The notes under the pieces: generated by a model | Told to the model about the DNA's origin: nothing | What the model saw: the letters and a program-made list of their open reading frames with translations, nothing else | The model's database searches: none | Position numbers and translations under genes: made by a program | Shown: in pieces, positions 4,588 to 28,067 of the stretch | How positions within the stretch are numbered: position 1 is the first letter of the stretch | Layout: each line of letters begins with the position of its first letter | Assembly (NCBI GenBank): GCA_937951485.1 | Contig: CALEDJ010000033.1 | Location: forward strand, 1 to 58,447 | Source: an uncultured bacterium | Lineage (GTDB): Bacteria; Hydrogenedentota; Hydrogenedentia; Hydrogenedentales; CAILVY01 | Length of the DNA stretch: 58,447 nt | Reading direction: 5' to 3'

Positions 4588-6900
4588 TCACTCCGAAGCC
4601 CCGATGGGCCATACATTCAATGTGTATTTTCCCGTGTCGGATAGTTCGAACGGACCGGGAAACGGATTGTCTTCGTTTCTATATCCTCCGAAATAGTCCG
4701 TGGCAATGCGAACAGGCGACCCGTCGCGATTGACATAGGGCAGGTCGGGAACCTTCGCTTTTCCCAGCAAGTCGGTAGTTACAAGGGGCCGTCGGCATTC
4801 CTGGATGCGGGCGGCGTCAAGTGTGATTTCAAGATGGCACCCTTCCGATTTGTGGGTCAGGACAAGACCCGGGTCATGGTCCTGCAACCCCAAAGCCGCC
4901 TCTTCATGTTCTGACAGTTCCGCGCCCGCGAGATAAACATTGCCGCCCAGGAAGGATGGAAAATCCTTTGCCTTGCAGGCGTTCAAACCTCGGGAACGCA
5001 CAAAGATGTTGTTGTAATAGCGGTCATCGCCGCAGGGATTGTTGTGCATGCCCGCGAGTTCCGTCGAGTGCGGCTTATGGAACGGGGTCATCCGCGCGTC
5101 GAAGCCGAGAATGTGAATGTTGCCGGCGAAAAGATTGTGCGCGTAGGCCGTGCCCTGCGACAGGGACAGGACGGATTTTTTCGAGAGAAAGAGATTGTTG
5201 TCCACAAGCAGCGGCCCATGGTTCACCTCGACAAACAAATCCTGTCCCGCGTTATCGTGAAACAGATTCCGCGATACGCGCGCGCCCTGCGCCATCCAAT
5301 CCAGCCACAGACCCATATTGCACCGATAGATATGGTTGCCGCTGATTTCCGCATCAATCGCGGCGTGGATTTTTATCCCCGCCATCTCCGCCCCGGTGAA
5401 CAGACGCCGCACATGGATATCATGGATGGTATTGCCGGTAATCGTACTGAAAATCGCGCCGAGACTGCCGACCAGCCCCGCCTGCTCACAGTGTGAAATG
5501 GTATTGTTCCGCACAATGTGGCCGCCGATGGTGTCCTTGTTCCAGCCGTTTTCCAGTGCGCGATGGATGGTCTCGACATAGCCTTCGGCGGTGTCGGCGG
5601 AAGTGTTGTCCCACTGGTCGCCGTATTTCCCCAGCGTCACGCCGGTGCAGACTGAATAACGGATATCGTTGTTCTCGATGATCCACCCCTTGCTCCAGTG
5701 GGTTCCGATCAATCCGATCTGCTCGGCCGTGGGCGGCGCCCATTGCGTGGCCGCGTGTTTCATCGAAAAGCCCCGCACGGTGATGTAGTTGATGAACGGC
5801 TTTTCGGGATAGAAAACCGCCTTGCGCACATTGATTTCCACCAGACGATCGTTGGGATTCACCCCCTTGAATTGCGCCCAGATGGTGGTATGCTCCGCGG
5901 CCACCTCGGCGTACCACAATGAGACGTCGGTGGGCCTGTCTTCAGGTTCGGCGTTCTTGAACACGAGACACAGCGTTTGGACCCCGCTCACCGGCTTTAT
6001 CTCGGCCTTGAAACTGGCCCATTCCTGCCACCCCCCGGTGTGCGGCACGGTGCACACGCCCAGCAGGTCCCCGTCCGGGCCATCCAAGCGAATCTCGATG
6101 AGACCGCCGTCGCTCGCCGACGCGGCGCGGATTTCCATCGAGGTGGTATTCTGCTTGAAATCAACGTCCGTATATCTGACCCAATGCCCATGCAGAATAA
6201 ACCCGATGCATTCCCCGCCTTCCGAGCAGGGGGCATTCTGCGTGCCGCTTTTCTCGGCAAAGTCCGGCGCTTGAATCCGCCGGGCGTCTGCCGCGCCGGG
6301 CCGCAGCCACGCCACGTTCAGCAAATAGTTTTGTCCTCCCGGACTGTACCACGAAGGAATGGTTCCCGCGGGCTGCATGACCTCATCCAACACGGCTGCC
6401 TCGACCAGCCAGTGCCCGTCAAGATAGACCGCGCCGGTATGGTGTTTGCGCCCCAAGGGATTGAACCAGTCGCCGCGAATCGGGTCGCTGTAAGGATTAT
6501 AATCGCCGAAAAACGCATTGGGCAGCACCACTTTCCACGTGTCATACGCCACCCATTCCCATCCCGTCACAATTTCCGACCCTTTAATCTCGACGCGTTC
6601 ACCGGGAGCCGCCTGGTAGGTGATGCGTTTTGTGTCGGATTCTCCACCGCGCGGCGGCGCAACCCGCTCGCGGTATACCCCTTCATGCACCGTAATGACA
6701 TCGCCCGGCTGCGCACGCAGCGCCGCCGCCGAGATGGTCCGCAGCATGCTGGCCGGAGACCCATCGTTGGCATCGTCGCCATGGACGGAAACATGATACT
6801 CTCTTGATGTCCCGCCTTCGTGCGGCGCTTCCTCGGCATAGGCCAAACCGGAAATGCCAAGCGCCGCGCAAACCGATAGAAAAATAAGGCTAACCAACAT
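4588..6900 (-). CDS. Secreted right-handed beta-helix protein with CBM6-like insert
   Basis: The 770-residue exported protein starts with a signal peptide (MLVSLIFLSVCAALGISGLAYA). The ATG at 6900 is chosen because GGAAGGGAG lies at the right spacing, rather than the upstream in-frame ATG. Residues about 30-110 show the DUF1565/pectate-lyase-like opening (GDDANDGSP, then PGDVITVHEGVYRE). Around residues 240-340 there is a module resembling CBM6 (IEIRLDGPDGDLLG, TGGWQEW, LCLVFKN). After residue 380 come beta-helix coils with N-rich turns such as IIENNDIRYS, IVRNNTISHC and ITGNTIHDIH. It probably binds and cleaves or isomerises an extracellular polysaccharide, but catalytic residues cannot be assigned. 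It is convergent with the ABC operon, which could import its products. Confidence 0.82.
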   Translation of the reverse strand: MLVSLIFLSVCAALGISGLAYAEEAPHEGGTSREYHVSVHGDDANDGSPASMLRTISAAALRAQPGDVITVHEGVYRERVAPPRGGESDTKRITYQAAPGERVEIKGSEIVTGWEWVAYDTWKVVLPNAFFGDYNPYSDPIRGDWFNPLGRKHHTGAVYLDGHWLVEAAVLDEVMQPAGTIPSWYSPGGQNYLLNVAWLRPGAADARRIQAPDFAEKSGTQNAPCSEGGECIGFILHGHWVRYTDVDFKQNTTSMEIRAASASDGGLIEIRLDGPDGDLLGVCTVPHTGGWQEWASFKAEIKPVSGVQTLCLVFKNAEPEDRPTDVSLWYAEVAAEHTTIWAQFKGVNPNDRLVEINVRKAVFYPEKPFINYITVRGFSMKHAATQWAPPTAEQIGLIGTHWSKGWIIENNDIRYSVCTGVTLGKYGDQWDNTSADTAEGYVETIHRALENGWNKDTIGGHIVRNNTISHCEQAGLVGSLGAIFSTITGNTIHDIHVRRLFTGAEMAGIKIHAAIDAEISGNHIYRCNMGLWLDWMAQGARVSRNLFHDNAGQDLFVEVNHGPLLVDNNLFLSKKSVLSLSQGTAYAHNLFAGNIHILGFDARMTPFHKPHSTELAGMHNNPCGDDRYYNNIFVRSRGLNACKAKDFPSFLGGNVYLAGAELSEHEEAALGLQDHDPGLVLTHKSEGCHLEITLDAARIQECRRPLVTTDLLGKAKVPDLPYVNRDGSPVRIATDYFGGYRNEDNPFPGPFELSDTGKYTLNVWPIGASE

Positions 6901-7020
6901 GATGTAACTCCCTTCCATTGGGATTCGTTCTGGATACCCACGCCCTACACCCAAACCTCGATACTATCGAAGGTGAATCCAGCATTCAAGCACGACTGCG
7001 CTATTTTGCAGCACCCCGTT

Positions 7021-7344: not shown

Positions 7345-9726
7345 ATGAACATGTGTCAAATGGCGTTGGTTGTGTTGTTTGGGGTTGTTGCGGCGACCGG
7401 GCCGGTAATGGCGATTGACCTCCGAGAAACCGCAGTCGTTGTGCGTTCGGGTGGCGTTTCTCCTGCCGAGCAGATGGCGGGTGTCATTCTGGTGGAAGAA
7501 ATGAAGAAAAGGGCGGGGCTTTCGTGGGAACTTGTTACGCAGTGGCCCGCAAAGGGGGCGGTAATCGCGATTACAACGAGGGATAACGCCTTGTTGGCGG
7601 GTCGGGTCGTGCCGGCACGCAACGGACAGGACCTTCCCGAGGCGAAGCCGGAAGGCTATCGGATCGTGACAGACCTTTCCGGCGCACAGCCCGTTATCTG
7701 GATTATCGGCGCGGATGGACGCGGCGCGATGTTCGGTGCGGGTCATCTCCTGAGAAGTTTCGACTGGTTGCCCGGGGAGGCGTCCTTGCGGGAACCACTC
7801 GACGTGGCGACCGCGCCCGAATACCCCCTTCGTGGTCATCAGTTGGGGTATCGGTATCAATCCAACAGTTATGACGCCTGGACCACCGAAACCTATGAGC
7901 AGTACATCCGCGATTTGGTCGTCTTCGGAACCAATGCCATCGAGCAGATTCCATTTCAGGATGACCGGGTCAGCCCGCACTTTCCCATCCCCCGGCATGA
8001 CATGAACGTGGCGGTGAGTGCGATCTGCGCCCGCTACGATCTCGAATACTGGATTTGGACCCCCGCCGAGTTCCACCTCGGCGACGCGGAAAAGCGCGCC
8101 AAACACCTGGAGGAACACGCAAGGCTGTACCGCGATGCGCCACGAATTGACGGCGTATTCTTCCCCGGCGGCGACCCGGGCCGGAATCACCCCGAATACG
8201 TGATGCCCTTCCTGGAAGATTTGGCGGCGCTGCTCGCCGAAACACACCCGAACGCAAAGATATGGTTGTCGCTTCAGTGGTTCGACGCGGCAATGACGGA
8301 GTATATCTTCGAATACCTTGACCGCGAAAAGCCATCATGGTTCGCGGGCATGGTCATGGGGCCGGGTGCGCCGCCGCTCATTCCGACGCGCCGGCGCCTG
8401 CCCGAACGCTATAAACTGCGTCATTACCCCGACATCACGCACACCATCCGCAGCCAGTACCCGACGCCGTGGTGGGACCCCGCCTACAACGCCACGCTGG
8501 GCCGCGAGCCAATCAATCCGGAACCGTTGCGCTATGGCCTTGTCCACAACGAATTCGCCCCATCTACCGACGGGTTCATCACCTACTCTGACGGCATCAA
8601 TGACGATGTAAACAAAATCGTCTGGAGCATGCTGGGATGGGATACAACCCGCGATGTGCGCGATATCCTGATCGAGTACTCCTGCTGCTTCTTCGGGCGG
8701 GACCTGGCCGAAAGCGCGGCGGACGGCATCATTCAACTCGAACAAAACTGGCGCGGACCGCTGTACGAAAATGCAGCCGTGGATGCGACGCTCGCCCATT
8801 GGAGGAAAATGGATAGCGAACATGCGGCACACTTGCAGAACAACTGGCGGTGGCAGTGCTGCATGCTCCGCGCTTATTACGACGCCTATACCCGGCATCG
8901 CCTGATTTATGAACACAAACTGGAACTGGAAGCAAACAAAGCCATGCTCGAACTGGCGCAGGAGAATCCGGACGCGGCGATGGACGCCGCCCTTGCCATC
9001 TACAACAAAGCGGAAACACAACGGATTCTGCCGGATTACCATCAGACGATCGTGAAGTACTGCGACGCCCTTTTTGAGAACATCGGCCTGCAAACGAGCG
9101 TCGAACGCTACAAAGCCTGCCACTATGAGCGCGGCTGTATTCTCGATTTCATTCACTATCCCCTGAACAGCAGATGGTGGGTGGAGGACCAGTTCAAGGA
9201 GATCAGGGAACTTGACAGCGACGCGGAGAAAACCGCGCGCATCGTTGCCATCGCCACATGGGAACATCCCGGTCCCGGCAGTTTCTATGACGACATCGGA
9301 AATGTGTGGAAGAACCCCCGCCGCATTCGCAGCGAAGACCTGACCACCGACCCGCTCATGGAACGCAACCACAATGCCGGTTTCATGTGGTGGGACGACG
9401 GATGGACGCGACGGCGGCCCTCATGGGTCAGTTACCAGGACACAGGGACAGGCCTGCGCTACAACGGCCTGGACCCCAAGGCCACATACCTTTTGCGTGT
9501 GACAGGTTATCGCAACCCACGCGTATTCGCCAATGGGGAACCATTGCAGCGGATGGAAGAAGGCGTGAAACAAATCGGAGAATTCATCCATTTCCCCATC
9601 CCAAAGGAACTGTATCAGGACGGATTCCTCGTCATCACATGGCACGGCGCCCCGGAGGAAGCGGTCACTCTCAACTGGCGCGAGCACTCGCGACTGACGG
9701 AAGCCTGGCTGCTGAAGAACCCCTGA
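7345..9726 (+). CDS. Secreted glycoside-hydrolase-like protein (GH67/GH20-like architecture)
   Basis: The 793-residue protein has a cleavable signal peptide (to about residue 24, ending VMA). Residues 25-150 resemble the small alpha/beta domain that precedes the barrel in GH20, GH67 and GH84 enzymes (AGVILVEEMKKRAG, then IIGADGRGAMFGAGHLLR). A TIM-barrel-like region follows, with EQIPFQDDRVSP and the acidic loop DGVFFPGGDPG near residue 268. The C-terminal 150 residues look like a beta-sandwich. AGGGAAC lies just upstream of the ATG. A substrate cannot be deduced. The gene stands alone, convergent with the PhoD-like gene (18-base gap). Uronic-acid or hexosamine glycans would fit the fold. Assignment to a particular CAZy family is uncertain. 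Confidence 0.65.
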   Translation: MNMCQMALVVLFGVVAATGPVMAIDLRETAVVVRSGGVSPAEQMAGVILVEEMKKRAGLSWELVTQWPAKGAVIAITTRDNALLAGRVVPARNGQDLPEAKPEGYRIVTDLSGAQPVIWIIGADGRGAMFGAGHLLRSFDWLPGEASLREPLDVATAPEYPLRGHQLGYRYQSNSYDAWTTETYEQYIRDLVVFGTNAIEQIPFQDDRVSPHFPIPRHDMNVAVSAICARYDLEYWIWTPAEFHLGDAEKRAKHLEEHARLYRDAPRIDGVFFPGGDPGRNHPEYVMPFLEDLAALLAETHPNAKIWLSLQWFDAAMTEYIFEYLDREKPSWFAGMVMGPGAPPLIPTRRRLPERYKLRHYPDITHTIRSQYPTPWWDPAYNATLGREPINPEPLRYGLVHNEFAPSTDGFITYSDGINDDVNKIVWSMLGWDTTRDVRDILIEYSCCFFGRDLAESAADGIIQLEQNWRGPLYENAAVDATLAHWRKMDSEHAAHLQNNWRWQCCMLRAYYDAYTRHRLIYEHKLELEANKAMLELAQENPDAAMDAALAIYNKAETQRILPDYHQTIVKYCDALFENIGLQTSVERYKACHYERGCILDFIHYPLNSRWWVEDQFKEIRELDSDAEKTARIVAIATWEHPGPGSFYDDIGNVWKNPRRIRSEDLTTDPLMERNHNAGFMWWDDGWTRRRPSWVSYQDTGTGLRYNGLDPKATYLLRVTGYRNPRVFANGEPLQRMEEGVKQIGEFIHFPIPKELYQDGFLVITWHGAPEEAVTLNWREHSRLTEAWLLKNP

Positions 9727-9744: not shown

Positions 9745-11202
9745 CTATTGAACAGCAGGCAGCGCGACTTCATTGTACACATCGCCGGTAACGCCGCAAT
9801 GCCGAAACACCATCCTGGGCACGCCGCCTTCGCGCGTCACCGTGACATGCAGGAAACCGCCTTTGAGATTGAGATACCGGTGCTCAGGGCGGAAATCGTC
9901 CTCTTTCCAGCCGCCGGCATGTTCATCGCTCGACGGGCCGGTGCCGAATTCATACAAACCGGTTTCATTGTCAACGGAAACGTATTGCCAGTGGCGGTCG
10001 CCATTGATGACGATCATGTTCTTCATGGAGGCCATGAACCGTCGCAATTCGTTGCCTTCGTGCGCAAAGGCGCTGTTGGCATGATTGTCCGCCTTGTTCT
10101 CACGGTCCGGTCCGACAACGGGCGTTGGGCTTATCAACACCCGAAATGTCGCGTCCGATGCCTCGACAGTGCGTTTGAACCACGCCTTTTGCTCCGCGCC
10201 CCAGATGGTCTTGTCCGGACCGTCCGGCATGGTGTTGGGGCTGCGAAAGTCGCGCCCTTCCACCAGCCATACCTGTAAATCCCTGCCCCAGCGTATGGTT
10301 CGGTATGTTTTCTCCCCCATGGGCACCTGTTCCCTGAAGATGGACAATCCCTGTTCCCAGGTGAGTTGCCCGTACCTCTGCCCCGGCCAGCAATCGTTTC
10401 GCAACGTGTCATGATCGTCTTTCATGAAATAACCGGTCACGTTGCAGTGAAATTTACGTTGATAGGGCATGGCGAACATTCGGTTCCATTTGAATCGGGC
10501 CAGTTCCTGATTCGGCGCCCACGGCAGCGGTTTGTCGTAATACTCGATGTCGCCCGTATGCACAAAGAAATCGGGATTCAGCCGGAGCATGGCGTCGTAG
10601 ATTTTGTGGCCCATTTCCGGATCGTCGCGGCGCGGATAATCGCCGCAGGTAACAACGACAAACGAAACCGTCGCCGGATCCCCGGGCGGCGGAGATGTTT
10701 TGAAACGTCCTTCCACACTGCAGGAAACCTCACTTTCCGCATCGGATTTTCCTTGCACCCGCACCTCGTAAACTGTCGCCGGTTGCAAATTGTCCAGAAG
10801 GTGCTGTCGTGTGAAATCCCGGTCCGGATATACTGGCAACCAGGGTGTCTGCTTCGTCTCTTCAGGTTTCCCCGCCGGCCAACAGGCGATTTGCACCAGA
10901 CCTGCCGCGCCCGGCGTTGCTCCCTCCATGGCGTCCAGAGGATGGCCGCCGGTCAGGTCGGCGGTGCTCAGGTCAGCCCCTGCGTTGCGGCCGCCATCCA
11001 CTTCAGGGAAGGGCAGGCCGTCGGTATTGCGTTCCGGCGCGCGTGTCAGGCGCGTCCACACAATCGCGCGGTCCTGGTGAACCTCGCCGACCTTGATGCC
11101 GTTCGCCATATACACCGCACCGTACGCCATGCCTTGGATTATGGTCAAGTGCAGCAGCGCAACAGCGCAAAGGATCGTCGTTTTTGAAAACAGTCTGTCC
11201 AT
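9745..11202 (-). CDS. PhoD-like metallophosphatase, secreted
   Basis: The 485-residue protein belongs to the PhoD/alkaline-phosphatase D-like metallophosphoesterases. It has an N-terminal hydrophobic signal, then a short fibronectin-like domain (VGEVHQDRAIVWTRLT). The catalytic domain contains VVTCGDYPRRDD, VHTGDIEYYD, the metal-binding KDDHD and INGDRHWQY. These supply the Asp, Asn/His and His ligands expected of the family. The start at 11202 is chosen for its GGGAG site and signal peptide; the frame stays open upstream without domain content. The likely role is hydrolysis of phosphate mono- or diesters, or of a phosphorylated or sulfated glycan, outside the cytoplasm. It is divergent from the redoxin-sialidase gene. 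Confidence 0.88.
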   Translation of the reverse strand: MDRLFSKTTILCAVALLHLTIIQGMAYGAVYMANGIKVGEVHQDRAIVWTRLTRAPERNTDGLPFPEVDGGRNAGADLSTADLTGGHPLDAMEGATPGAAGLVQIACWPAGKPEETKQTPWLPVYPDRDFTRQHLLDNLQPATVYEVRVQGKSDAESEVSCSVEGRFKTSPPPGDPATVSFVVVTCGDYPRRDDPEMGHKIYDAMLRLNPDFFVHTGDIEYYDKPLPWAPNQELARFKWNRMFAMPYQRKFHCNVTGYFMKDDHDTLRNDCWPGQRYGQLTWEQGLSIFREQVPMGEKTYRTIRWGRDLQVWLVEGRDFRSPNTMPDGPDKTIWGAEQKAWFKRTVEASDATFRVLISPTPVVGPDRENKADNHANSAFAHEGNELRRFMASMKNMIVINGDRHWQYVSVDNETGLYEFGTGPSSDEHAGGWKEDDFRPEHRYLNLKGGFLHVTVTREGGVPRMVFRHCGVTGDVYNEVALPAVQ

Positions 11203-11492
11203 TGCCAATTGCTCCCACAGGTGTTGCAGCGTTGATCCCATAATAACCCAATCACAGCGGATGGAAATAATCATCCCGAGGGCACCATCATTAATGGGAC
11301 ACGGCAGGGTAATTCCTGATTGCCCGGAGATTTTCCCAGGGCATCTCATACCCCGCACACGAAAATTCCTGCGACAAATCAGCAGATTCGCAATTCGATG
11401 GTCACGCGAATCCGAAATTGGAAAACCCCCGTTCAAATAGGGGATATTGACGGATATTGGACAGTGCACTCTGAACTGGAAGGGGAGTAACC

Positions 11493-13067
11493 ATGCGATT
11501 GGATATCACTGTAATCATGCTGATCACAAGGGTTCTGTCTGCATGCGCAACGGCAACGGCACTTGACCTCGGGGAACAAGCGCCGGCAGTGACGTTCGAG
11601 ACGCTCGACGGCTTCGAGCGACACATGGACAATTATGACACGCGCAAGGGAACGGTCCTGGTCTTCCTGTCATCCCGCTGTGAAACAACCGAGCCGCAGA
11701 TGACGCGGATAAACGAGATTCACGAGGCGAACCGATTCAACATTCTCTTCATCGGCGTCAGCGCGAATCCGGCGGAAAGCGGCGATGAATTACGAAAGTT
11801 TGGCACGAATCTCGGTGCGATATTTCCGATTTATCGCGATGTGACAGGGAAGGTCCGGGAAACCTTCGGCGCATCCGTGACACCGGAGTTCTTCCTGCTC
11901 GACAATCACGCCAAACTTCTTTACAGGGGCGGCCTCGGCGGCACTGTCGAAGAGCCGGGGCTTGAACGCGCCGTGACGCAATACCTCAAGGGCAGGACAA
12001 TAGACGTCCCCCAGACGCCGGCGGCAGGAACGCCCATTGACGCGCCCGGCCCAAAGCGCGAGATAAGGAACCGTTACGGACTGCCGATGTTTCGCAGCCA
12101 GTTCATCTTCCAAGAGATTCCCGGCGCGGCGGTGCACCACTGCTCCACTGTGGCGGAAGCGCCGAACGGCGATATTCTGGCCCTATGGTACGGCGGAAGT
12201 TATGAGTCGGCAGAGGACCAGGCGCTGTACATGGCGCGACTGAAGCGCGGCGAGTGGGTGTGGACGATGCCGGAGCGCGTGCTTGTAAACCACGGACAAC
12301 CACCCGGCAATGCCGTTGTTTTCCAGGGGCCTGACAAGCGCATGTACATCATTTGGGGCAGGATGGAGGGCACATGGCCGAAGCGACGCGGATCAGGCTG
12401 GAGCGATTGTCGTCTGCTCGTGCGCACCTCCGAAGACAACGGCCACACCTGGAGCGAAGACACCGAAATCGCCGGAAGTTACGGCTGGTTGCCGCGCAAT
12501 ACGCCTGTGACGCTTGCCGACGGCGCCTTCGCGCTGCCCATCAGCGGGAACGTGGAGGGCGAAGGCAGCGGCTCGTTTCTACTGGTGCTTGATGAGACTA
12601 CCGGCGAATGGTCGCGCCGGGGCTTCATCCGGGGTGCAAGCCAACCCACCGTGATTGTGCGCGACAACGGCGATCTGCTCTGTCTCATGCGCAGCAGCCC
12701 GCGCACGATGAAAAGCATCTCAACCGATCATGGCCACACATGGACGCGCATCACCGCGACGGACCTGCGCAACCCCGGTTCCGGAATCGCCTGTGTCAAA
12801 CTCCGGAGCGGACGGGTGCTGCACGTCTACACCGACACCGAGACCGGCTCGCGGTATCCCATGGTCATCGTGCAATCCCGCGATGACGGCGAAACCTGGG
12901 GCGGCCTGATTACCCTGGCCACCGACTGGGGCGAGTTTTCCTACCCCAGCATCATCCAGGCTTCGGACGGCATGGTCCATCTGCTCTACACATACCGCCG
13001 CTATTCGATCATGCACACAATGTTCAACGAAGACTGGCTCGAACACCAGAAGGCCCGGCCGAATTAA
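11493..13067 (+). CDS. Redoxin-sialidase-like fusion, putative lipoprotein
   Basis: The 524-residue protein joins two modules. After a short hydrophobic leader with a lipobox-like LSAC ending at Cys18, residues about 25-165 form an AhpC/TSA-redoxin domain (DLGEQAPAVTFETLDG, then VTPEFFLLD with the cis-proline). The active-site loop reads SSRCETTEP, so Cys63 is present but the second Cys of a CxxC is replaced by Thr. Residues about 195-520 form a BNR/sialidase-like six-bladed propeller with Asp-boxes SEDNGHTW, STDHGHTW and SRDDGETW. The propeller matches the sialidase-like family common in Planctomycetota, whose substrates are mostly unknown. The ATG follows GGAAGGGGAG. Confidence 0.85.
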   Translation: MRLDITVIMLITRVLSACATATALDLGEQAPAVTFETLDGFERHMDNYDTRKGTVLVFLSSRCETTEPQMTRINEIHEANRFNILFIGVSANPAESGDELRKFGTNLGAIFPIYRDVTGKVRETFGASVTPEFFLLDNHAKLLYRGGLGGTVEEPGLERAVTQYLKGRTIDVPQTPAAGTPIDAPGPKREIRNRYGLPMFRSQFIFQEIPGAAVHHCSTVAEAPNGDILALWYGGSYESAEDQALYMARLKRGEWVWTMPERVLVNHGQPPGNAVVFQGPDKRMYIIWGRMEGTWPKRRGSGWSDCRLLVRTSEDNGHTWSEDTEIAGSYGWLPRNTPVTLADGAFALPISGNVEGEGSGSFLLVLDETTGEWSRRGFIRGASQPTVIVRDNGDLLCLMRSSPRTMKSISTDHGHTWTRITATDLRNPGSGIACVKLRSGRVLHVYTDTETGSRYPMVIVQSRDDGETWGGLITLATDWGEFSYPSIIQASDGMVHLLYTYRRYSIMHTMFNEDWLEHQKARPN

Positions 13068-13149
13068 ATGGACATCCAGATTGATCACCATCCATACAGA
13101 CGCATAGACTCAAAGACACATGGAAACAATAAGCCAAAGGAGCGACGCT

Positions 13150-14370
13150 ATGAATTCCAGGGAGAATCCTTCTGAACGCATTACCCGGCGCGGGTTTGTT
13201 CGGCAAACGGCCGCGTCGTCCTTTCTCGTCATGGCGGCGTCATCCGCCTTGGGTAGTCAAGCCAACGCCCGCATCAAAGCCGGCGTGGTCGGCTTGGGCG
13301 GACGCGGACGGATGATCGCCACAATGGTGCGCGACCACGGCGGCTATGAGATTACCGCCGTTGCAGATTACTTTCCGGAAATCGCGCAAGGCTTCGGGGA
13401 ACAGATCAATGTGCCAGGCGAGCGTTGTTTCTCCGGCCTTTCGGGCTACCAGGGCGTCATTGAAAGCGGTATTGAAGCCGTCTTTCTCGAAGCGCTTCCG
13501 TACTTCTTCCCGGAACACGTCACAGCCGCCTGCAACGCCGGGCTTCATGTGTACATGGCCAAGCCGGTGGCGGTTGATGCGCCCGGCTGTCTGGCGATTG
13601 ACGCTGCGGCCAAAAAGGCCGCCCGGAAAAATCGCTGCTTCCTGGTGGACTACCAGATGCCCACGGACCCCATCAACATCGAAATCAGGCAGCGCATCCT
13701 GGATGGCGGCGTTGGCAATCTTGCCTACGTCCAAACTTACGGCTATGGCGGCGGCTTTGAGGATCCGCCAAAGACGGCCACCATTGAGAGCCGGCTCAGG
13801 AACCTGATCTGGGTAAACGACGCGGCGCTGGGCGGCGATTACATCGTCAACTATGACATCCATGCCATTGACGCCGCACTGTGGGTCATCGGCAGGAACC
13901 CGGTGGCAGCCGCGGGCGCGTCCCGTATTTGCCGCCCGGCCCCACACGGCGACTCGCGGGATGTCTGTTCGGTCGTATACGAGTTTGATGACGGCCTCGT
14001 GCTGAACCACGCGGCGGTGGCCTTGCCCAACAAGGCCCAGAGCGCCCTCACGTGTCAGGTGTATGGCACCGAAGCCCACGCCCAGATCAACTACTGGGGA
14101 AGCGCCTTTCTACGCGGCGGTGCCAAGGAATTCGAAGGCGGCAACATCAACAACCTCTACACCGACGGCGCCCTCCGCAACATCGCCACGTTTCATGACG
14201 ACATCGTCCACGGGCGCCACGAGAACCCGACAGTTCGGCGCTCCATAGACGGCTGTCTCGTCACCATTCTCGGACGGGAAGCCGCCGCACGCAAGACCCG
14301 CATGACCATGGCTGAATTGCTCAAGGAGAATAAACGCCTGGAGGTTGACCTTTCCGGCCTGAAGGTCTGA
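13150..14370 (+). CDS. Gfo/Idh/MocA oxidoreductase, Tat-exported
   Basis: The 406-residue protein begins with a twin-arginine signal (TRRGFVRQTAASSFLVMA). A Rossmann dinucleotide-binding domain follows (VVGLGGRGRM) with the family Lys in MAKPVAVD. The C-terminal alpha/beta domain includes YIVNYDIHAIDAALWV. It should oxidise or reduce a sugar or cyclitol with a tightly bound NAD(P), in the periplasm. AAAGGAG nine bases before the ATG at 13150 fixes the start. The neighbouring convergent gene encodes a Tat-exported sugar-isomerase-like protein, which suggests work on the same substrate, although the two are not in one operon. Confidence 0.9.
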   Translation: MNSRENPSERITRRGFVRQTAASSFLVMAASSALGSQANARIKAGVVGLGGRGRMIATMVRDHGGYEITAVADYFPEIAQGFGEQINVPGERCFSGLSGYQGVIESGIEAVFLEALPYFFPEHVTAACNAGLHVYMAKPVAVDAPGCLAIDAAAKKAARKNRCFLVDYQMPTDPINIEIRQRILDGGVGNLAYVQTYGYGGGFEDPPKTATIESRLRNLIWVNDAALGGDYIVNYDIHAIDAALWVIGRNPVAAAGASRICRPAPHGDSRDVCSVVYEFDDGLVLNHAAVALPNKAQSALTCQVYGTEAHAQINYWGSAFLRGGAKEFEGGNINNLYTDGALRNIATFHDDIVHGRHENPTVRRSIDGCLVTILGREAAARKTRMTMAELLKENKRLEVDLSGLKV

Positions 14371-14423: not shown

Positions 14424-15950
14424 TCAGACGGGACCGCCGGTGATATGTTCGAGTTTCACGCCGGCGAGGTCAGCCCACGCGCGGACCATGTGGAGATTGT
14501 CGCCATAGGTCAGGACCTTATGATGTCCGCGAATCTGGCGCACATCGTCCACGTCGTCCATCGCCATCACGAACGAGGTCCGGCATCCGCCGGTGCCGTC
14601 GTGGCGTTGCGTATCCACATTCCGAAGAATGGTTCCAGTGGCGATCATGAGTGACTCCGGAGAAAGGAAGCGCCACAAGGTGGCCGGCTGATCTTTCTTC
14701 AACAGCACCTGGGGCACAGCGCCAAAACCGGCTTCGTGATGGCTGCGCAGGATGTAGGGTTCGGGTTCCTCCTCAAAACCCGCCATGCGCGTGGGTGCCG
14801 TGCAATGGCCGCCGGCATAGAGATTGCGCGTGGTGTCGTGGATGGGATTGTGCAGGAATCCGGGCCGGTCGAGAAGATAGCGGCTCAGCAACTGGGTCAG
14901 TCCCGGATAAATGTCGGCTTCGCAGACGCCCACGCTGCCCTCGTTGAGCAACTGCATGAACGCCAGGCAGGGCGGCAGTATCTCCTGGCCGGTGACCGGA
15001 CCAAAACAGTTTATCGCCACGCCGTGGCACTTCGTCTCATCAAGAAGACGGCGAACAGCCACGTAGGAGCGGGCGCCATTAAACACCTCCTCTTCGGAAG
15101 GTTCGATCCTGTCTTTGGCGTTTTCAAGATACAGGCGGGCAATCTCCTTGATTTCTTCGGCCCCCTGCGCGTCCGCTTCAATCTCTTTATACCGCTGCAT
15201 CGGCACATAGCGGAGGGTTGTTCCCAAAGGTTCCAGGGTTTGCTCGCGGTCCTCGCCGCCCGTCACCACGGCCAGCCGCGTGTTCGCCATTTGCCATCGG
15301 GCCTTCAACATGCGCAAGCCGGTGGCGAGCCAGCCAATCTCCGCACTGGCGGCCATGAAACAGTACGGCGCAGCGCGGAATGGCTCATAATCACTGGGAT
15401 CGTGGTGAAGCGTCCCATGAGGCACGAAACCAAGCAGCGGCAGTTCCCGGCGGTCGCCGCGCTGCTTCAGGAAGTGGTACATGCCCTGCACACCATAGGT
15501 CTGGGCCTCCATGTTAATCAACAGCACCCCGGCAGCGCGTTCCTCCAGCGCGCTTGCGAGGAGCGCATTCACGCCCGCGTCATCGCCGATTCGGGCATCC
15601 TGAATTCTCAGAATAATTCCCTGGGCTTGCGCGCTCTCCTCAAGTGTCCGGGTGTAGAGGGCCTGGCTTGCGTCGGAATCGTATTCCTTGCCCGGCCATC
15701 CCATTTCCCGGTACACGCCGGGGGGCGATTGCAGAAAACCCACACGGATAAGGGGTTTCTCCGGTCCATCCCCGGGCAACATGGGACGGCCCATCACCTG
15801 GCGCGCACTCACCTGAACCAGGCCGCTGTTCAGCGCCATCGCCGCGCCCCCGGCCAGTCCGGCCCGCACGAGAAACTGGCGCCGGCCCAACAATGGACAT
15901 CCCCCGCCGCCACTGTTCACACCATGTCCGCTGCCTGATTCGATACCCAT
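14424..15950 (-). CDS. L-fucose/L-arabinose isomerase-like protein with Tat signal
   Basis: The 508-residue protein opens with a glycine-rich stretch and a Tat-like signal (LLGRRQFLVRAGLAGGAAMA). The body matches the fucose/arabinose isomerase fold. There is an N-terminal Rossmann-like domain with YFLQ-type helices, then a C-terminal part with INCFGPVTG, CEADIYPGLTQLL and DTTRNLYAGGHCT, ending RAWADLAGVKLEHI. Known members are cytoplasmic Mn-dependent aldose-ketose isomerases, so an exported copy is unusual. GGAGG before the ATG at 15950 selects the start. A TTGACA promoter lies upstream. Some key Glu/Asp metal ligands cannot be confirmed by eye, so it may be a non-isomerase member of the fold. 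Confidence 0.75.
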   Translation of the reverse strand: MGIESGSGHGVNSGGGGCPLLGRRQFLVRAGLAGGAAMALNSGLVQVSARQVMGRPMLPGDGPEKPLIRVGFLQSPPGVYREMGWPGKEYDSDASQALYTRTLEESAQAQGIILRIQDARIGDDAGVNALLASALEERAAGVLLINMEAQTYGVQGMYHFLKQRGDRRELPLLGFVPHGTLHHDPSDYEPFRAAPYCFMAASAEIGWLATGLRMLKARWQMANTRLAVVTGGEDREQTLEPLGTTLRYVPMQRYKEIEADAQGAEEIKEIARLYLENAKDRIEPSEEEVFNGARSYVAVRRLLDETKCHGVAINCFGPVTGQEILPPCLAFMQLLNEGSVGVCEADIYPGLTQLLSRYLLDRPGFLHNPIHDTTRNLYAGGHCTAPTRMAGFEEEPEPYILRSHHEAGFGAVPQVLLKKDQPATLWRFLSPESLMIATGTILRNVDTQRHDGTGGCRTSFVMAMDDVDDVRQIRGHHKVLTYGDNLHMVRAWADLAGVKLEHITGGPV

Positions 15951-16322
15951 TGACCGATTCCTCCATTCGCGGGCAGGTCCCGCCCGCCGTTCTTCGATAC
16001 ACCGCCCCATAACATCCGCCGCCGGTATTCCCGGCCTTGCGGACGCCCGTTGATTCCATTGTGGCAATGCCCCCTTGTCAACACCACGCCCGTATAATGC
16101 ATGGCCGCGGAGGGGGACGCAACCAGGCGTCTATGCCTGATGTCCTGGCACGGGTGATGGTAGATCGGAAGCAGAACGACCTGAACGGCGTGTGCTATGC
16201 TTAAAAAGGTATCTATCCGCAAGAACTGCATACAAGCCGTGTATGATGTGTTGGTGTGCGATCGTTTGCGTTTTGCACCGACAGGTTCCGGATTACGCCT
16301 GGAAAAAAGGGGAGATTTTGCC
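15951..16322. other. Intergenic region between divergent genes
   Basis: This 372-base spacer separates the Tat isomerase-like gene from the glycosidase-like gene. The only clear signal is the minus-strand promoter at 16053-16081. The rightward gene has a GGGGAGA ribosome-binding site at about 16308-16314. No convincing promoter for it and no RNA gene were seen. Confidence 0.4.
16053..16081 (-). promoter_or_regulatory. Sigma70-type promoter for the Tat isomerase-like gene
   Basis: On the minus strand TTGACA (16081-16076) is followed after 17 bases by TGGAAT (16058-16053). It sits about 100 bases upstream of the ATG at 15950. The -35 box is perfect and the -10 box is weak. Confidence 0.5.
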
Positions 16323-18791
16323 ATGCACCGCTCGCTGATATTCTTTATGGTCATCGCATCGGCGTTCGCTGTGAACGCGGATGCCGTCCCGGAGGATTTT
16401 CCGGTAAGCCGAACCATTACCGAAGTTCTGCGGGACCCGTTGCCGCCGGAAGACCTGACCTGCACGAGCGAAGATACCCGCATCATTATCCAGGGTCCCA
16501 CATTCCGTTATGTCGTTGACCGAAGAACGGGCGGCATTGCCGAACTTGAGGCAATTCGCGAAGGGAACAAAGTCGTGACACTGCGCGGACCCGCGGATCT
16601 CTGGCTGGATGGTCTGAGCCTCGCAGAAAGCGCCGACGGCCTCACGGAAATCAGTGTCATGGAGCCTGGCAGGGTGATATTGCACGCCAAGGGTCGCTGG
16701 GGAACCGTTCCCTACGCCGTAGAACATACTTTCTACAATGATGGTGTGGCGGTTTCGGCGGTTGTCCTGCGGCCCGACCAGGACTTGACCATCCGCAGTG
16801 GGCTGCGATATGAGGTGAGCGCGACCGGGCGCTTCAGCCAATACCTGCACAAACGCCGCGACACTGAAGGCATGGACAGTCCCAAGGGCGCCTTGCCGGA
16901 ACCGGGATCGTCCGTCACCCTGACAACGCTCACATCCTGTCTCCAGGTCTATGGCGCAGAGGCCGCTCTGGCCATCTTCACCGACCGGGGCGGTGCGCAT
17001 CGCTCTCCCGCTGAAGTTGAGACTGCGTCGCTGCGTGTGGATGCGGGGGATAGCGGAGACGCATCGGTGATCATGACACAGTATCTGATGAACATCGGCC
17101 CCGAGGGCGAAGCCCATACCCTTCACGCGGGAGAGGAGTTTCGGTTCCGCGTAGGAATGGCGGTGGCCCCGAATCGCCTGCCGCATTCCCGGTGGCGCGA
17201 TCTCCGGATGTTCATCTGGATCGGCGATCAGGCCCATCCGTACCCATCGGACGAGGAAATCCTTACGGCGGCGCGCCTGGGTTTCACCGTTTTTCAGATG
17301 CACCGTCTGGGCACGCCGGGCCTGCCGCGCCCGCCGGCGCATGAACTCGACCGCGTCCTCAAGACTGTGCATGACGCGGGCATGCTCTTCGTCTGGACCG
17401 CCAATGCCGATCTCATGTATCGAAACGCGCCGGGCGTTGAGGAACTCATGGCGGCGAATAAATGGCCGCTGTGGCAGGGATTCAATTATGGCGGCCGCTA
17501 CACGGACCATATGGACCCCTACTGCGACCTCGTGGCGACGTGCCTCGCTTCGCCCAACAGCCTCGCCGATTATCGCATCCGCACCAAAATCGAGATGCTG
17601 CAAAAGTACTCCATTGACGGCATGTACATTGATGACAACCTCGCCTATGCAAATTGCACGCTGTGGAAGGAGCACGGCCATCCGGAGCCGATATACGATT
17701 GTCTCATCGAGTTGCATGAAATGAACTGGCGGCGCCGGCAGACCTTCATGGCGCGATGCCCGCATACGGTTCTGATTGGCCACTGCAGTTATGGGTTCGC
17801 CCTGCCCGTGATTTCCGCCTTTGATGTTCATCTCTTCGGAGAAGGGTATTCATTTTCTTCGGTCGAAACATTCTGGAACACCTTCGGTTCGTTCAAGAAC
17901 ATGAATGCGCAGGGCAGCCTTTATGCGGGCGACAGTGAGGGGGTCCGCTGCAACGCCGAAGTCGCCTATACCTTCGATCTGTTGACCGGCGGCGGGCAGT
18001 ATTGCTACCTCGACTGGCGGCTCTGGCCCGAAAAGTTTCCCTATGCCGCCGGCGTCAAACCGGAAGAGGCGCTTTTTGTCGGCGCCTGTAATCTCGCTCA
18101 ATATTATTTTGGCATGTACGAATCCCAACCGCGCTATTTCGCAATGTCACAGGATTTCTTCACGACCACAGCCCCCGGCACGTATGCCACCATCTACGAA
18201 AACAAGGTCTGGAACGAAGCGCTGGTGGTCCTCGTCAACATGAACGACAAGGAGGCGACAACCTCGGTGGTTTTCCACGATGCGGAAATTCCTTTGTTCA
18301 CGTGGGAAAAACCTGTGGCGTTTTACGACATCAACCTGCGGTCCGTCGTTGTGGCCAAGGGCAGCGAATCATCGCAACAACTCTCCAACCAGACGCTCAA
18401 ACCTTTTCAGATGAAACTTCTCCATGTGCGCGGCGTGTCCGAAAACTGTGCGTATCACCAATGGGGCGGCAAACGCATCTCGGAGCAATGGGACCCCGTC
18501 TCGCGGACCCTGACACTGCGGTTGCACGGCCCGACAGGACTTCAAGATACCGTGTTTCTCGGCGCTCGTGGTCAGGGATTCGAACAAGTCACGGTGGACG
18601 GTAATCCCGTCGAGTTCTTTGTTGATCCTGATGTGAGACTTGCGCATGGAACCGTAACCTTCAAACGTCAGCCCATAACGCTTGTGGTGAAATGCTCCGA
18701 TGACATGGAAGACCGCCTGCCTGTTCAACGGGTTACGCCCGACCAATTGACGCAACTGCTTTTTTCCAGGCACGATGGAACACGGTCGTAG
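16323..18791 (+). CDS. Secreted TIM-barrel glycoside-hydrolase-like protein
   Basis: The 822-residue protein has a signal peptide (MHRSLIFFMVIASAFAVNADA) preceded by GGGGAGA, which sets the start at 16323. Residues 60-290 look like a beta-sandwich of the mutarotase/glycosidase N-terminal kind. A barrel follows from about residue 295 (MFIWIGDQAHPYPSDEEIL), with AGMLFVWTANADLMY and the acidic strand end IDGMYIDDNLAY near residue 434, where catalytic Asp residues are commonly found in GH-D clan and DUF6259-like proteins. A small beta-domain closes the protein. No CAZy family can be assigned confidently. It lies between two Tat-exported enzymes and has no operon partner. Confidence 0.68.
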   Translation: MHRSLIFFMVIASAFAVNADAVPEDFPVSRTITEVLRDPLPPEDLTCTSEDTRIIIQGPTFRYVVDRRTGGIAELEAIREGNKVVTLRGPADLWLDGLSLAESADGLTEISVMEPGRVILHAKGRWGTVPYAVEHTFYNDGVAVSAVVLRPDQDLTIRSGLRYEVSATGRFSQYLHKRRDTEGMDSPKGALPEPGSSVTLTTLTSCLQVYGAEAALAIFTDRGGAHRSPAEVETASLRVDAGDSGDASVIMTQYLMNIGPEGEAHTLHAGEEFRFRVGMAVAPNRLPHSRWRDLRMFIWIGDQAHPYPSDEEILTAARLGFTVFQMHRLGTPGLPRPPAHELDRVLKTVHDAGMLFVWTANADLMYRNAPGVEELMAANKWPLWQGFNYGGRYTDHMDPYCDLVATCLASPNSLADYRIRTKIEMLQKYSIDGMYIDDNLAYANCTLWKEHGHPEPIYDCLIELHEMNWRRRQTFMARCPHTVLIGHCSYGFALPVISAFDVHLFGEGYSFSSVETFWNTFGSFKNMNAQGSLYAGDSEGVRCNAEVAYTFDLLTGGGQYCYLDWRLWPEKFPYAAGVKPEEALFVGACNLAQYYFGMYESQPRYFAMSQDFFTTTAPGTYATIYENKVWNEALVVLVNMNDKEATTSVVFHDAEIPLFTWEKPVAFYDINLRSVVVAKGSESSQQLSNQTLKPFQMKLLHVRGVSENCAYHQWGGKRISEQWDPVSRTLTLRLHGPTGLQDTVFLGARGQGFEQVTVDGNPVEFFVDPDVRLAHGTVTFKRQPITLVVKCSDDMEDRLPVQRVTPDQLTQLLFSRHDGTRS

Positions 18792-25072: not shown

Positions 25073-27964
25073 TTATTCCAACGCCGGGCCGTCAATGCGC
25101 TCGCCCAGAAGTTGCCGTGCCTGGTCCTGTGGGTCGAAAGTGCCATAGAACAGTGCGTTGGCGTCCATCCAGGTGACGAGGCGTTCCATGTCTTCATCGC
25201 TGAGGCGGACGTCCTGATGCCCTTGCAGCAGCATGTCCATGAGGCGGCTGGCAATTGCGCCGAAACGGCCTGGTCGGGTCTTGGGTTCGTCGTTGGTTTC
25301 CGGGGTGCTCCACGCCGTAAAGGGGACCATCGGCGCGAGCGCGTTGTAGGACTTCGAATAACGCCCTTCCGGCTCGCCGGTCAACACCAGCGCCCGTCCT
25401 TCCGGGCCTTTGGGATGTTCCCCGCCGTGGCACCGGACGCAGTGCTTGTCGAGCACAGGCTGAACCAGCAATGGATAACTGAACGGGTTTGATCCATCCG
25501 GACCCGGCGTAATTCTGGAGGGTTCCCGCTGCGCGGCGAGGGTTGGGCGCATAACGGCCGGGGCGCTCGACCGTTGTTCATGGCACCCGACACATGACGC
25601 CCTCTCCCCCGGCTGCAGATAGGTCAGGCTGCGCATGGTCTGAACAGCGCGGCCCCGCTCGTCAATGGCCTGAAACAAAAGGGGAACACGCGCAGGCGCG
25701 CGAAAGTACGCCGAACCATCCGCTTCAACGGGCACCGTGCCGATCACCTGCTTGCCGGGAGAGGCGTTGGGCAGGCCGACAGTGGGATCATTCGCGTGCG
25801 GCGTGGTCTTGGGCAGCACCTGCACGATGCGCAGGCGTTTCACCGAGTTTTCGGGCAGTTCATAGTTGCTGATGTAAACGTTCTGCAAATAGAAGATTCC
25901 CTCCTCCCCCAGCAACTCGTCCCGCATCGAAGGAATAATGGGCGGCCTCGTGCGCGGCCGCAGTGGCACCGGCCACAGGCTCGAAATGTTGAGGTCGCGG
26001 TAAATCAGTTCGCGGTTGCCGAAGGCATCCGCGAGATACAGGCCGAACATGTTCGCCTTGTTCGAGTCCGGCTCGCCGATAAGCGGGTCAAAACTGTAAG
26101 CGACCAGAAACAAGGTTTCCGAGAGTGGATAGGGGCTTCGATAACAATGTCCGGGCCAGCGCCGCGCCTCTTCAGGCGTCTCATATTCCTTGGGGCTTCC
26201 CGGCGCATGCCAGCCCACCGGCGGCACGTACGTTTCGCTTTCGGGGAACGGCGCGTCCGGCGTCAGCCGACACAGTGGTTCCAGGCCGTCCACCCCTTTC
26301 GTTCTATCCACAAGGATGATTGACCCGGCCGTCATTGCATGATGCGCCGCAGCGGTCGCCATGACCAACGGCGATCCGGGGACCTGCCGGGCCTCCCACA
26401 CGCCCACCGGATTGAACGTGTTGTTGCCGTAATAGGCCATCACCGCCGATCCGTCCGGGCGCGCCGCCCAGAGTTGCTGGTAGTGAACGGCATCGCGGTC
26501 AACATAGTCCCATCGCGTGTAAATAACCCTGCCATCAGCGAGCACCGACGGGTCCCACTCATGGGTCTCATGGAAAGATATGGGATGCGGATTCCCGCCG
26601 TCCGCATCGGCCAGCGCAAGCGTGTACACATCGCACGGACCGCGCCCGCAGCGATGAAATCCACCCCGGCGCGTCGAAATGAAAACGATTTTGCCGTCCG
26701 GCAGTTCGCAGGGCGAGAAATCGTCGGAAGGCCCATCCGTCAATTGCCGCAATTCCGACCCGTCAGGACGAATCGCATACAAGTGATACCGCCGATCGCG
26801 ATACGGTTCCAGGTTGTCCCACTCGGGCACTGTGGGCGCCTCGCAAAAGGCAAACAGGATACGGTCGGCGTCATAACTCACTTCAGGCTGCATGTAACTG
26901 CCTTCCCGCAGCAGCCCCGAAGTCAGCGAACGGCAGGCCATGGACGCGCCCGGGCGTTCCAGCACAAACAGCCCGCCGCCGGGTCTGGCGCACCGCCCGT
27001 AGTACTGCGTCAGTTGATGACTGAAAAACGAGGGCACGTGCTTGGCAAACACCAGCGGGCCGGTATGCGCGGTCGGATTTGCGAACATGACGCGCCGCCG
27101 CAACTCATGGACCTCCAGCCACAACCGCTCCCAGCGGGGGTCGTCGTTCTCCGGCCCCAGCCGCACGAGTTCTGCGAACGCCCGCTCCATCTCGCGCCAC
27201 GCACGCAGCAAATCATTCAGCCCGTCGTCGCTCTTGTCCAAACCGGCCATGAGGGCGCTGCCCTGCTGCAGCGTCCGCGCAATGGCCCGCACGAATGGCA
27301 CCGCCTCACGCTCGGTTTCGATGCCGTCCCGCATCCGCCAGTCCCATTCCACAAGCACCCATTCCATCCCCGGACGCAGCGCCGGCAACTCAGGAGGCGG
27401 GAAAATCTCCGTGGCAGGCGACGCGGGCATTACAGAAATGGACCGCGTATCCCCACCGCCAACCAGCCGTATCCTGCGCCATCTCACCACCGATTCACCC
27501 GGCCCGGCAATGGTCGTCATGCGAAGACGACCGTCTTGCAGCGGCTTTTCCACTTGCGCACGGAGCAACTCTGCATCGCCCGCAACAATCTCTTGCGGCA
27601 TTCCCGTGTCATCAAATGAGAAAACGACCTGCGCCGCCTCCCCTTGCACGACCTCCACTTCGGCCTGCGCCACAATGCCGGCCGCCGCGTTGATGACGGG
27701 AACCTCGACCTCGACCTGCTCCCCTTCCCGGACGCACACCGCGAACGCCTCGCGTCCAAACGAAGCCACCTGAGGCCCAGAACCGTCCGCAATCAGTGAG
27801 AATCCGCACACCGCCGAACTGGGCACGGGAGCAGACGCTCCGCAAAGCAAAACCTGCGGCTCGCCGAAAGACAAACCGGCGTCTGCGTGTCCCATCAAGG
27901 AAACACCGACACACAGCACGGATACAATCAAGACCAACACGCCTGCAAACAATTCCACGCGCAT
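25073..27964 (-). CDS. HzsA-like propeller protein with two CxxCH motifs
   Basis: The 963-residue exported protein is related to the hydrazine synthase alpha-subunit family. An N-terminal signal segment is followed by a beta-rich domain, a coiled middle (residues 250-320) and a PD40/TolB-like propeller (GSELRQLTDGPSDD, then KIVFISTRRGGFHRCG). The C-terminus carries CVGCH near residue 791 and CVRCH near 842, attachment sites for two c-type haems. GGGAG before the ATG at 27964 supports the start. No HzsB/HzsC genes are nearby, so an anammox role is not indicated. These proteins are widespread in PVC-like bacteria with unknown reactions. A paralogue lies at 36661-39216. Confidence 0.88.
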   Translation of the reverse strand: MRVELFAGVLVLIVSVLCVGVSLMGHADAGLSFGEPQVLLCGASAPVPSSAVCGFSLIADGSGPQVASFGREAFAVCVREGEQVEVEVPVINAAAGIVAQAEVEVVQGEAAQVVFSFDDTGMPQEIVAGDAELLRAQVEKPLQDGRLRMTTIAGPGESVVRWRRIRLVGGGDTRSISVMPASPATEIFPPPELPALRPGMEWVLVEWDWRMRDGIETEREAVPFVRAIARTLQQGSALMAGLDKSDDGLNDLLRAWREMERAFAELVRLGPENDDPRWERLWLEVHELRRRVMFANPTAHTGPLVFAKHVPSFFSHQLTQYYGRCARPGGGLFVLERPGASMACRSLTSGLLREGSYMQPEVSYDADRILFAFCEAPTVPEWDNLEPYRDRRYHLYAIRPDGSELRQLTDGPSDDFSPCELPDGKIVFISTRRGGFHRCGRGPCDVYTLALADADGGNPHPISFHETHEWDPSVLADGRVIYTRWDYVDRDAVHYQQLWAARPDGSAVMAYYGNNTFNPVGVWEARQVPGSPLVMATAAAHHAMTAGSIILVDRTKGVDGLEPLCRLTPDAPFPESETYVPPVGWHAPGSPKEYETPEEARRWPGHCYRSPYPLSETLFLVAYSFDPLIGEPDSNKANMFGLYLADAFGNRELIYRDLNISSLWPVPLRPRTRPPIIPSMRDELLGEEGIFYLQNVYISNYELPENSVKRLRIVQVLPKTTPHANDPTVGLPNASPGKQVIGTVPVEADGSAYFRAPARVPLLFQAIDERGRAVQTMRSLTYLQPGERASCVGCHEQRSSAPAVMRPTLAAQREPSRITPGPDGSNPFSYPLLVQPVLDKHCVRCHGGEHPKGPEGRALVLTGEPEGRYSKSYNALAPMVPFTAWSTPETNDEPKTRPGRFGAIASRLMDMLLQGHQDVRLSDEDMERLVTWMDANALFYGTFDPQDQARQLLGERIDGPALE

Positions 27965-28067
27965 GCCGAACTCCCACGCTGTTGTCTGCCGCAGATTTAT
28001 TGAAAACGGATACATCCGCTTTCACCCGGCCACCCTGCAGCCCGGCTGTTCAGGAAAACCTGTGAAA

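Follow-up and report, generated by a model that had tools for sequence, protein, structure and literature searches.

GH33 sialidases such as Micromonospora NedA (1eur/1w8o) and Bacteroides BTSA (4bbw) have six propeller blades, a Tyr, two Arg residues and Asp-boxes, all of which recur in the fusion protein described here, and we apply their mechanism as set out previously (PMC4747158). The fusion differs from these enzymes, to which it is about 20% identical, in having a Gln for a Glu, a His for Arg1 (by spacing) and an N-terminal redoxin. Stand-alone BNR_2 proteins annotated as 'sialidase family proteins' (L070, L071, L084; other phyla) belong to the same family and share its candidate residues at 31-37% identity, but they lack the redoxin and have, where this could be seen, a signal peptide of their own. 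The redoxin half is related to proteins of the 2cvb/2ywi type, the family that we take to be named PRX_like1. Their first Cys aligns with Cys63 of the fusion, whereas their C-terminal GCxIK Cys is replaced by GTPI and their HCP motif by RCxxT; the fused redoxin further differs in that Cys63 is sometimes lost and a propeller is attached.

A second type of redoxin fusion occurs in the same order (L117, L118, L119, L120 and L121), in which the redoxin is followed by a cytochrome-c-like domain and a further domain, and the redoxins of L117-L121 retain the first Cys and the C-terminal GCxI/GCxV Cys. L117, L119 and L121 resemble the propeller fusion in that a PRX_like1-type redoxin stands at the N-terminus of a multidomain protein that is apparently exported, but they keep both the first and the GCxI Cys, have another partner and form a separate redoxin clade. 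In the literature on redoxin/BNR/sialidase architectures and on Hydrogenedentota sialidases we found no paper on a redoxin-propeller fusion, and no characterised close relative of the fusion protein was found.

A redoxin and a propeller in one reading frame

The window (the whole stretch of 58,447 nucleotides analysed) comes from a 4.5 Mb genome bin of the Hydrogenedentota, a little-studied bacterial phylum. The fused gene (Table 1) starts at an ATG preceded by a good ribosome-binding site (GGAAGGGGAGTAACC-ATG). Pfam assigned AhpC-TSA to residues 27-144 (E 5.7e-9) and BNR_2 to residues 226-497 (E 5.8e-51) of the 524-aa product, both above the gathering score, so that the redoxin and BNR propeller proposed in the initial annotation do lie in a single frame. 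The three clear Asp-boxes that it had described were likewise found, as S-x-D-x-G-x-T-W motifs ending at W320, W417 and W469. An AlphaFold2 model of the full-length protein, with 21 homologues as input, was confident across nearly the entire length (mean pLDDT 89.4).

The same annotation had read an LSAC tetrapeptide, located by pattern at residues 15-18, as lipobox-like. However, counting the window protein, just 3 of the 21 homologues have a lipobox-like tetrapeptide within the first 40 residues, and most begin with a short hydrophobic segment whose end is A-x-A-like. With no lipobox shared across the family and an AxA-like signal peptide of the ordinary kind in most of its members, lipoprotein anchoring looks unsupported. 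From these N-termini we infer that the fusion protein is exported, with uncertainty for the divergent L057-L061, in which the N-terminus is shorter.

Table 1. Fused gene, its parts and its two flanking genes (window positions).
Feature	Position	Strand	Description
Fused gene	11493..13067	+	Signal peptide, degenerate one-Cys redoxin, linker, six-bladed BNR_2 propeller; 524 aa
Signal peptide	11493..11564	+	Residues 1-24; A-x-A-like site at about 21-24 suits the homologues better than LSAC
Redoxin domain	11565..12047	+	Residues 25-185; PRX_like1/2cvb type; Cys63, N47, R62, R115; G179-T180 at second-Cys site
Linker	12048..12074	+	About residues 186-194; fast-evolving
Propeller	12075..13064	+	Residues 195-524; six-bladed sialidase fold, three Asp-boxes
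Candidate propeller active-site positions			H216, E238, Q384, R400, R454, Y484
Gfo/Idh/MocA oxidoreductase	13120..14370	+	Downstream of the fusion, same strand; start perhaps 13150
PhoD-like phosphatase	9745..11469	-	Upstream of the fusion, divergent

Distribution and descent of the fusion

The fusion was found at 24 loci, tallied by hand from a table, in 20 of the 68 genomes of the order (Candidatus Hydrogenedentota; the window's genome and 19 of 67 others), with a maximum of three loci per genome. Three loci are cut by contig ends and 21 are full-length, with 40 to 79% identity to the window. Trees of the two halves were built as quick searches. One branch of the redoxin tree (SH-aLRT 99) set all 21 fused domains apart from the stand-alone redoxins and from those with cytochrome-c-like partners, and in the propeller tree the fused propellers lay on one side (SH-aLRT 100) with the stand-alone propellers of other phyla outside. 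Since each half forms one clade, these trees indicate that one old fusion event likely gave all Hydrogenedentota copies. Both domains are under purifying selection, with dN/dS of about 0.05-0.17 where dS was estimable, values that are only rough because some dS values were saturated. In most pairs the dN of the propeller was about half that of the redoxin, making the propeller the slower-evolving half, and the signal peptide and linker are the fast-changing parts of the protein.

Outside the phylum, no fusion was found in about 318 spread-out genomes or, at a cut-off of 1e-60, in 392 genomes of another phylum (three best candidates per genome scored in both searches), nor in two small phyla. 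One full fusion was present in a phylum of 14 genomes (L124:7333-8862). Its position in the tree, which is weakly supported, is among the copies from Hydrogenedentota; it keeps Cys63, N47, R62 and R115 and has Trp for Thr54. This copy may reflect transfer or a binning error. There were no relatives among viral contigs, and 319 plasmid records matched the query, 0 of them covering 80% of it. One candidate for a truncated fusion (G777:C607) was rejected, as it proved to be a propeller that stands alone and has a signal peptide. Among the genomes examined, the architecture is thus almost confined to Hydrogenedentota, in line with its earlier description as nonstandard.

Cysteine loss in the redoxin half

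The VIA list obtained with the full-length model spans the propeller only, so a separate model of the redoxin was made and compared. In this model (pLDDT 92.9) the structural list was topped by 2ywi, 2cvb and 3u5r, with Z scores of 21 to 22 versus 17 for ResA, and the top match (Z 21.9) extended over 160 residues with the C-terminal extension included. The best sequence matches were the PRX_like1-type proteins 2cvb/2ywo, 2ywi and 3u5r (E 3.5e-21 and 2.2e-20). Cys63 lies in SSRCETT, a C-x-x-T motif. At the position of the CxxC of the ResA/TlpA thiol-disulphide oxidoreductases the window protein reads CETT, and the second motif Cys was found in no homologue, in agreement with the single-Cys redoxin that had been claimed for the window.

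The C-terminal second Cys is carried by the stand-alone redoxins of the order (GCxIK), and it was present in all 14 comparison redoxins that cover the site (19 compared); in the fusions this position is Thr or Asp (21/21). Cys63 itself is kept in 18 of the 21 fusions, always together with Thr66. It is replaced by Ser in L053 and L054 and by Ala in L060, which requires three changes on the tree, and in L053 and L054 its partners Thr66 and Thr130 are altered as well. Asn47, Arg62 and Arg115 are present in every fusion, the Cys63-less copies included, but in none of the 19 comparison redoxins. Since no fusion has the second Cys and Cys63 shows three independent losses, the redox chemistry looks dispensable. 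This pattern of residues suggests that the thiol chemistry has been relaxed while the domain has come under a new constraint, and the domain looks repurposed.

For the majority of fusions thiol chemistry may yet be important, because 18 of 21 keep both Cys63 and Thr66. This retention, together with purifying selection on the redoxin and the likeness of C-x-x-T to the one-Cys motif of glutathione peroxidases, would fit an active one-Cys enzyme, a thiol peroxidase or reductase, that is linked to the propeller and protects or regulates glycan processing. We consider such an active redoxin unlikely, since the repeated loss of Cys63 left the remaining protein intact, the C-terminal Cys occurs in no fusion, and R62 and R115 outlast Cys63. 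The coupling of oxidative chemistry to glycan processing suggested by the initial annotation is weakened by the same cysteine losses beside an intact propeller, and its fallback, a redoxin that simply tethers the propeller, is nearer to the evidence.

The propeller and its proposed role

The propeller model resembles the GH33 sialidases 1eur/1w8o (Z about 38, rmsd 2.2 over about 310 residues). In two profile alignments to 4bbw, R400 and R454 match Arg2 and Arg3 of GH33, and the site of the Tyr-activating Glu corresponds to Gln384, a Gln in 21/21 fusions. Y484 aligns with the Tyr of GYSC in 4bbw and is invariant in the 21 fusions; the catalytic parts given here to the Tyr, Glu and Arg residues of 4bbw are those that we presume them to play. 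Judged by spacing and structural range, His216 would occupy the Arg1 site, and an invariant E238 and a conserved D242 lie near the position of the GH33 Asp acid/base. H216, E238, N273, R400, R454, Y484 and R503 are common to the fusions and their stand-alone relatives. In one fusion copy (L061:8165-9586) an internal deletion takes out R400. The term 'sialidase-like' holds for the fold, but the catalytic set is incomplete with respect to GH33.

The Gln-for-Glu and His-for-Arg1 changes might mean that the propeller catalyses nothing. It would then be a non-catalytic glycan- or protein-binding scaffold, a role compatible with Asp-box propellers, which can be binding domains, and the redoxin would be the functional or docking half. 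We give this scaffold slightly less credence than an active redoxin; against it stand the stronger conservation of the propeller half and the retention of its Tyr, two Arg, H216 and E238 across phyla. That the protein is a true GH33 sialidase bearing a redoxin agrees with its best structural matches, yet the Glu partner and probably Arg1 are unconserved, and neither NanA nor NanE is convincingly present in the fusion genomes: NanA stayed below the cut-off throughout the order, NanE had no match in the window's genome, and the NanE matches above the cut-off in five genomes of the order were short and partial, none of them in a fusion genome. Sialidase activity in the strict sense is thus very unlikely. 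An artefact merging two genes, whether from assembly or from the frameshift that the initial annotation had named as its possible undoing, can be dismissed along with chance, because the full-length fusion recurs with open frames (24 uninterrupted loci in 20 genomes, with an identical junction) and selection on each domain is purifying.

The Gfo/Idh/MocA gene is possibly co-transcribed with the fusion. Neither this gene nor the PhoD-like gene is kept beside the fusion at other loci, and a conserved operon was rejected, as no neighbour family is common to most fusion loci. Several loci have carbohydrate enzymes next to the fusion (GH127, GH38, GH42, apiosidase-like, 3-keto-disaccharide hydrolase), which are absent at others, and such genes may be frequent throughout these genomes regardless of the fusion. 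At L052:7252-8331 (-) a second BNR_2 propeller gene lies immediately downstream of the fusion. Elsewhere, the window encodes a right-handed beta-helix protein with a GH120 insertion domain and CBM6 (4591-6954, -), a protein of 980 aa in which a PD40 repeat accompanies a hydrazine synthase alpha middle domain (HZS_alpha, E 4.9e-24; 25076-28015, -), two large proteins with no Pfam match at E 0.01 (7345-9723, + and 16197-18788, +), and a 547-aa protein with no Pfam match that is weakly like models of sulfoquinovose isomerase (SftI) and L-arabinose isomerase (14427-16067, -).

The reading that we favour, with a probability of about 50%, is that of an exported two-domain protein derived from one old fusion, in which the propeller is an acidic-glycan enzyme and the redoxin a non-redox accessory module. 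On this view the work is done by the propeller, which would probably be an exo-acting member of the sialidase superfamily with glycans as substrates, using Tyr484, Arg400 and Arg454 on an acidic sugar that differs from ordinary sialic acid. The redoxin would derive from a PRX_like1-type thioredoxin-fold protein after loss of the second Cys and would now mainly dock, bind a ligand or lend stability; Asn47, Arg62 and Arg115 would form its conserved surface or pocket. The monophyly of both halves, the slower propeller, the kept Tyr and two Arg, the lost cysteines, the fixed Asn47, Arg62 and Arg115, the NanA and NanE results and the carbohydrate-enzyme neighbours support this accessory-module reading; the retention of Cys63 with Thr66 in most fusions, the Gln and His changes in the propeller, the possible general frequency of carbohydrate genes, the lack of a conserved neighbour and the failure to find a characterised close relative speak against it. 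It is also conceivable, although doubtful, that the redox-stripped thioredoxin fold is an allosteric or substrate-presenting module, acting through N47, R62 and R115, for an undescribed family of glycoside hydrolases or lyases whose active site is an altered form of that of sialidases (His, Gln, two Arg, Tyr).

Here a redox fold has been retained during the apparent decay of its thiol chemistry, and its partner belongs to a large propeller family that is often named 'exo-alpha-sialidase' and has a catalytic set unlike that of GH33. The role of the redoxin would show what a cysteine-free thioredoxin fold is capable of, and the identity of the substrate could correct many annotations and reveal what Hydrogenedentota eat.
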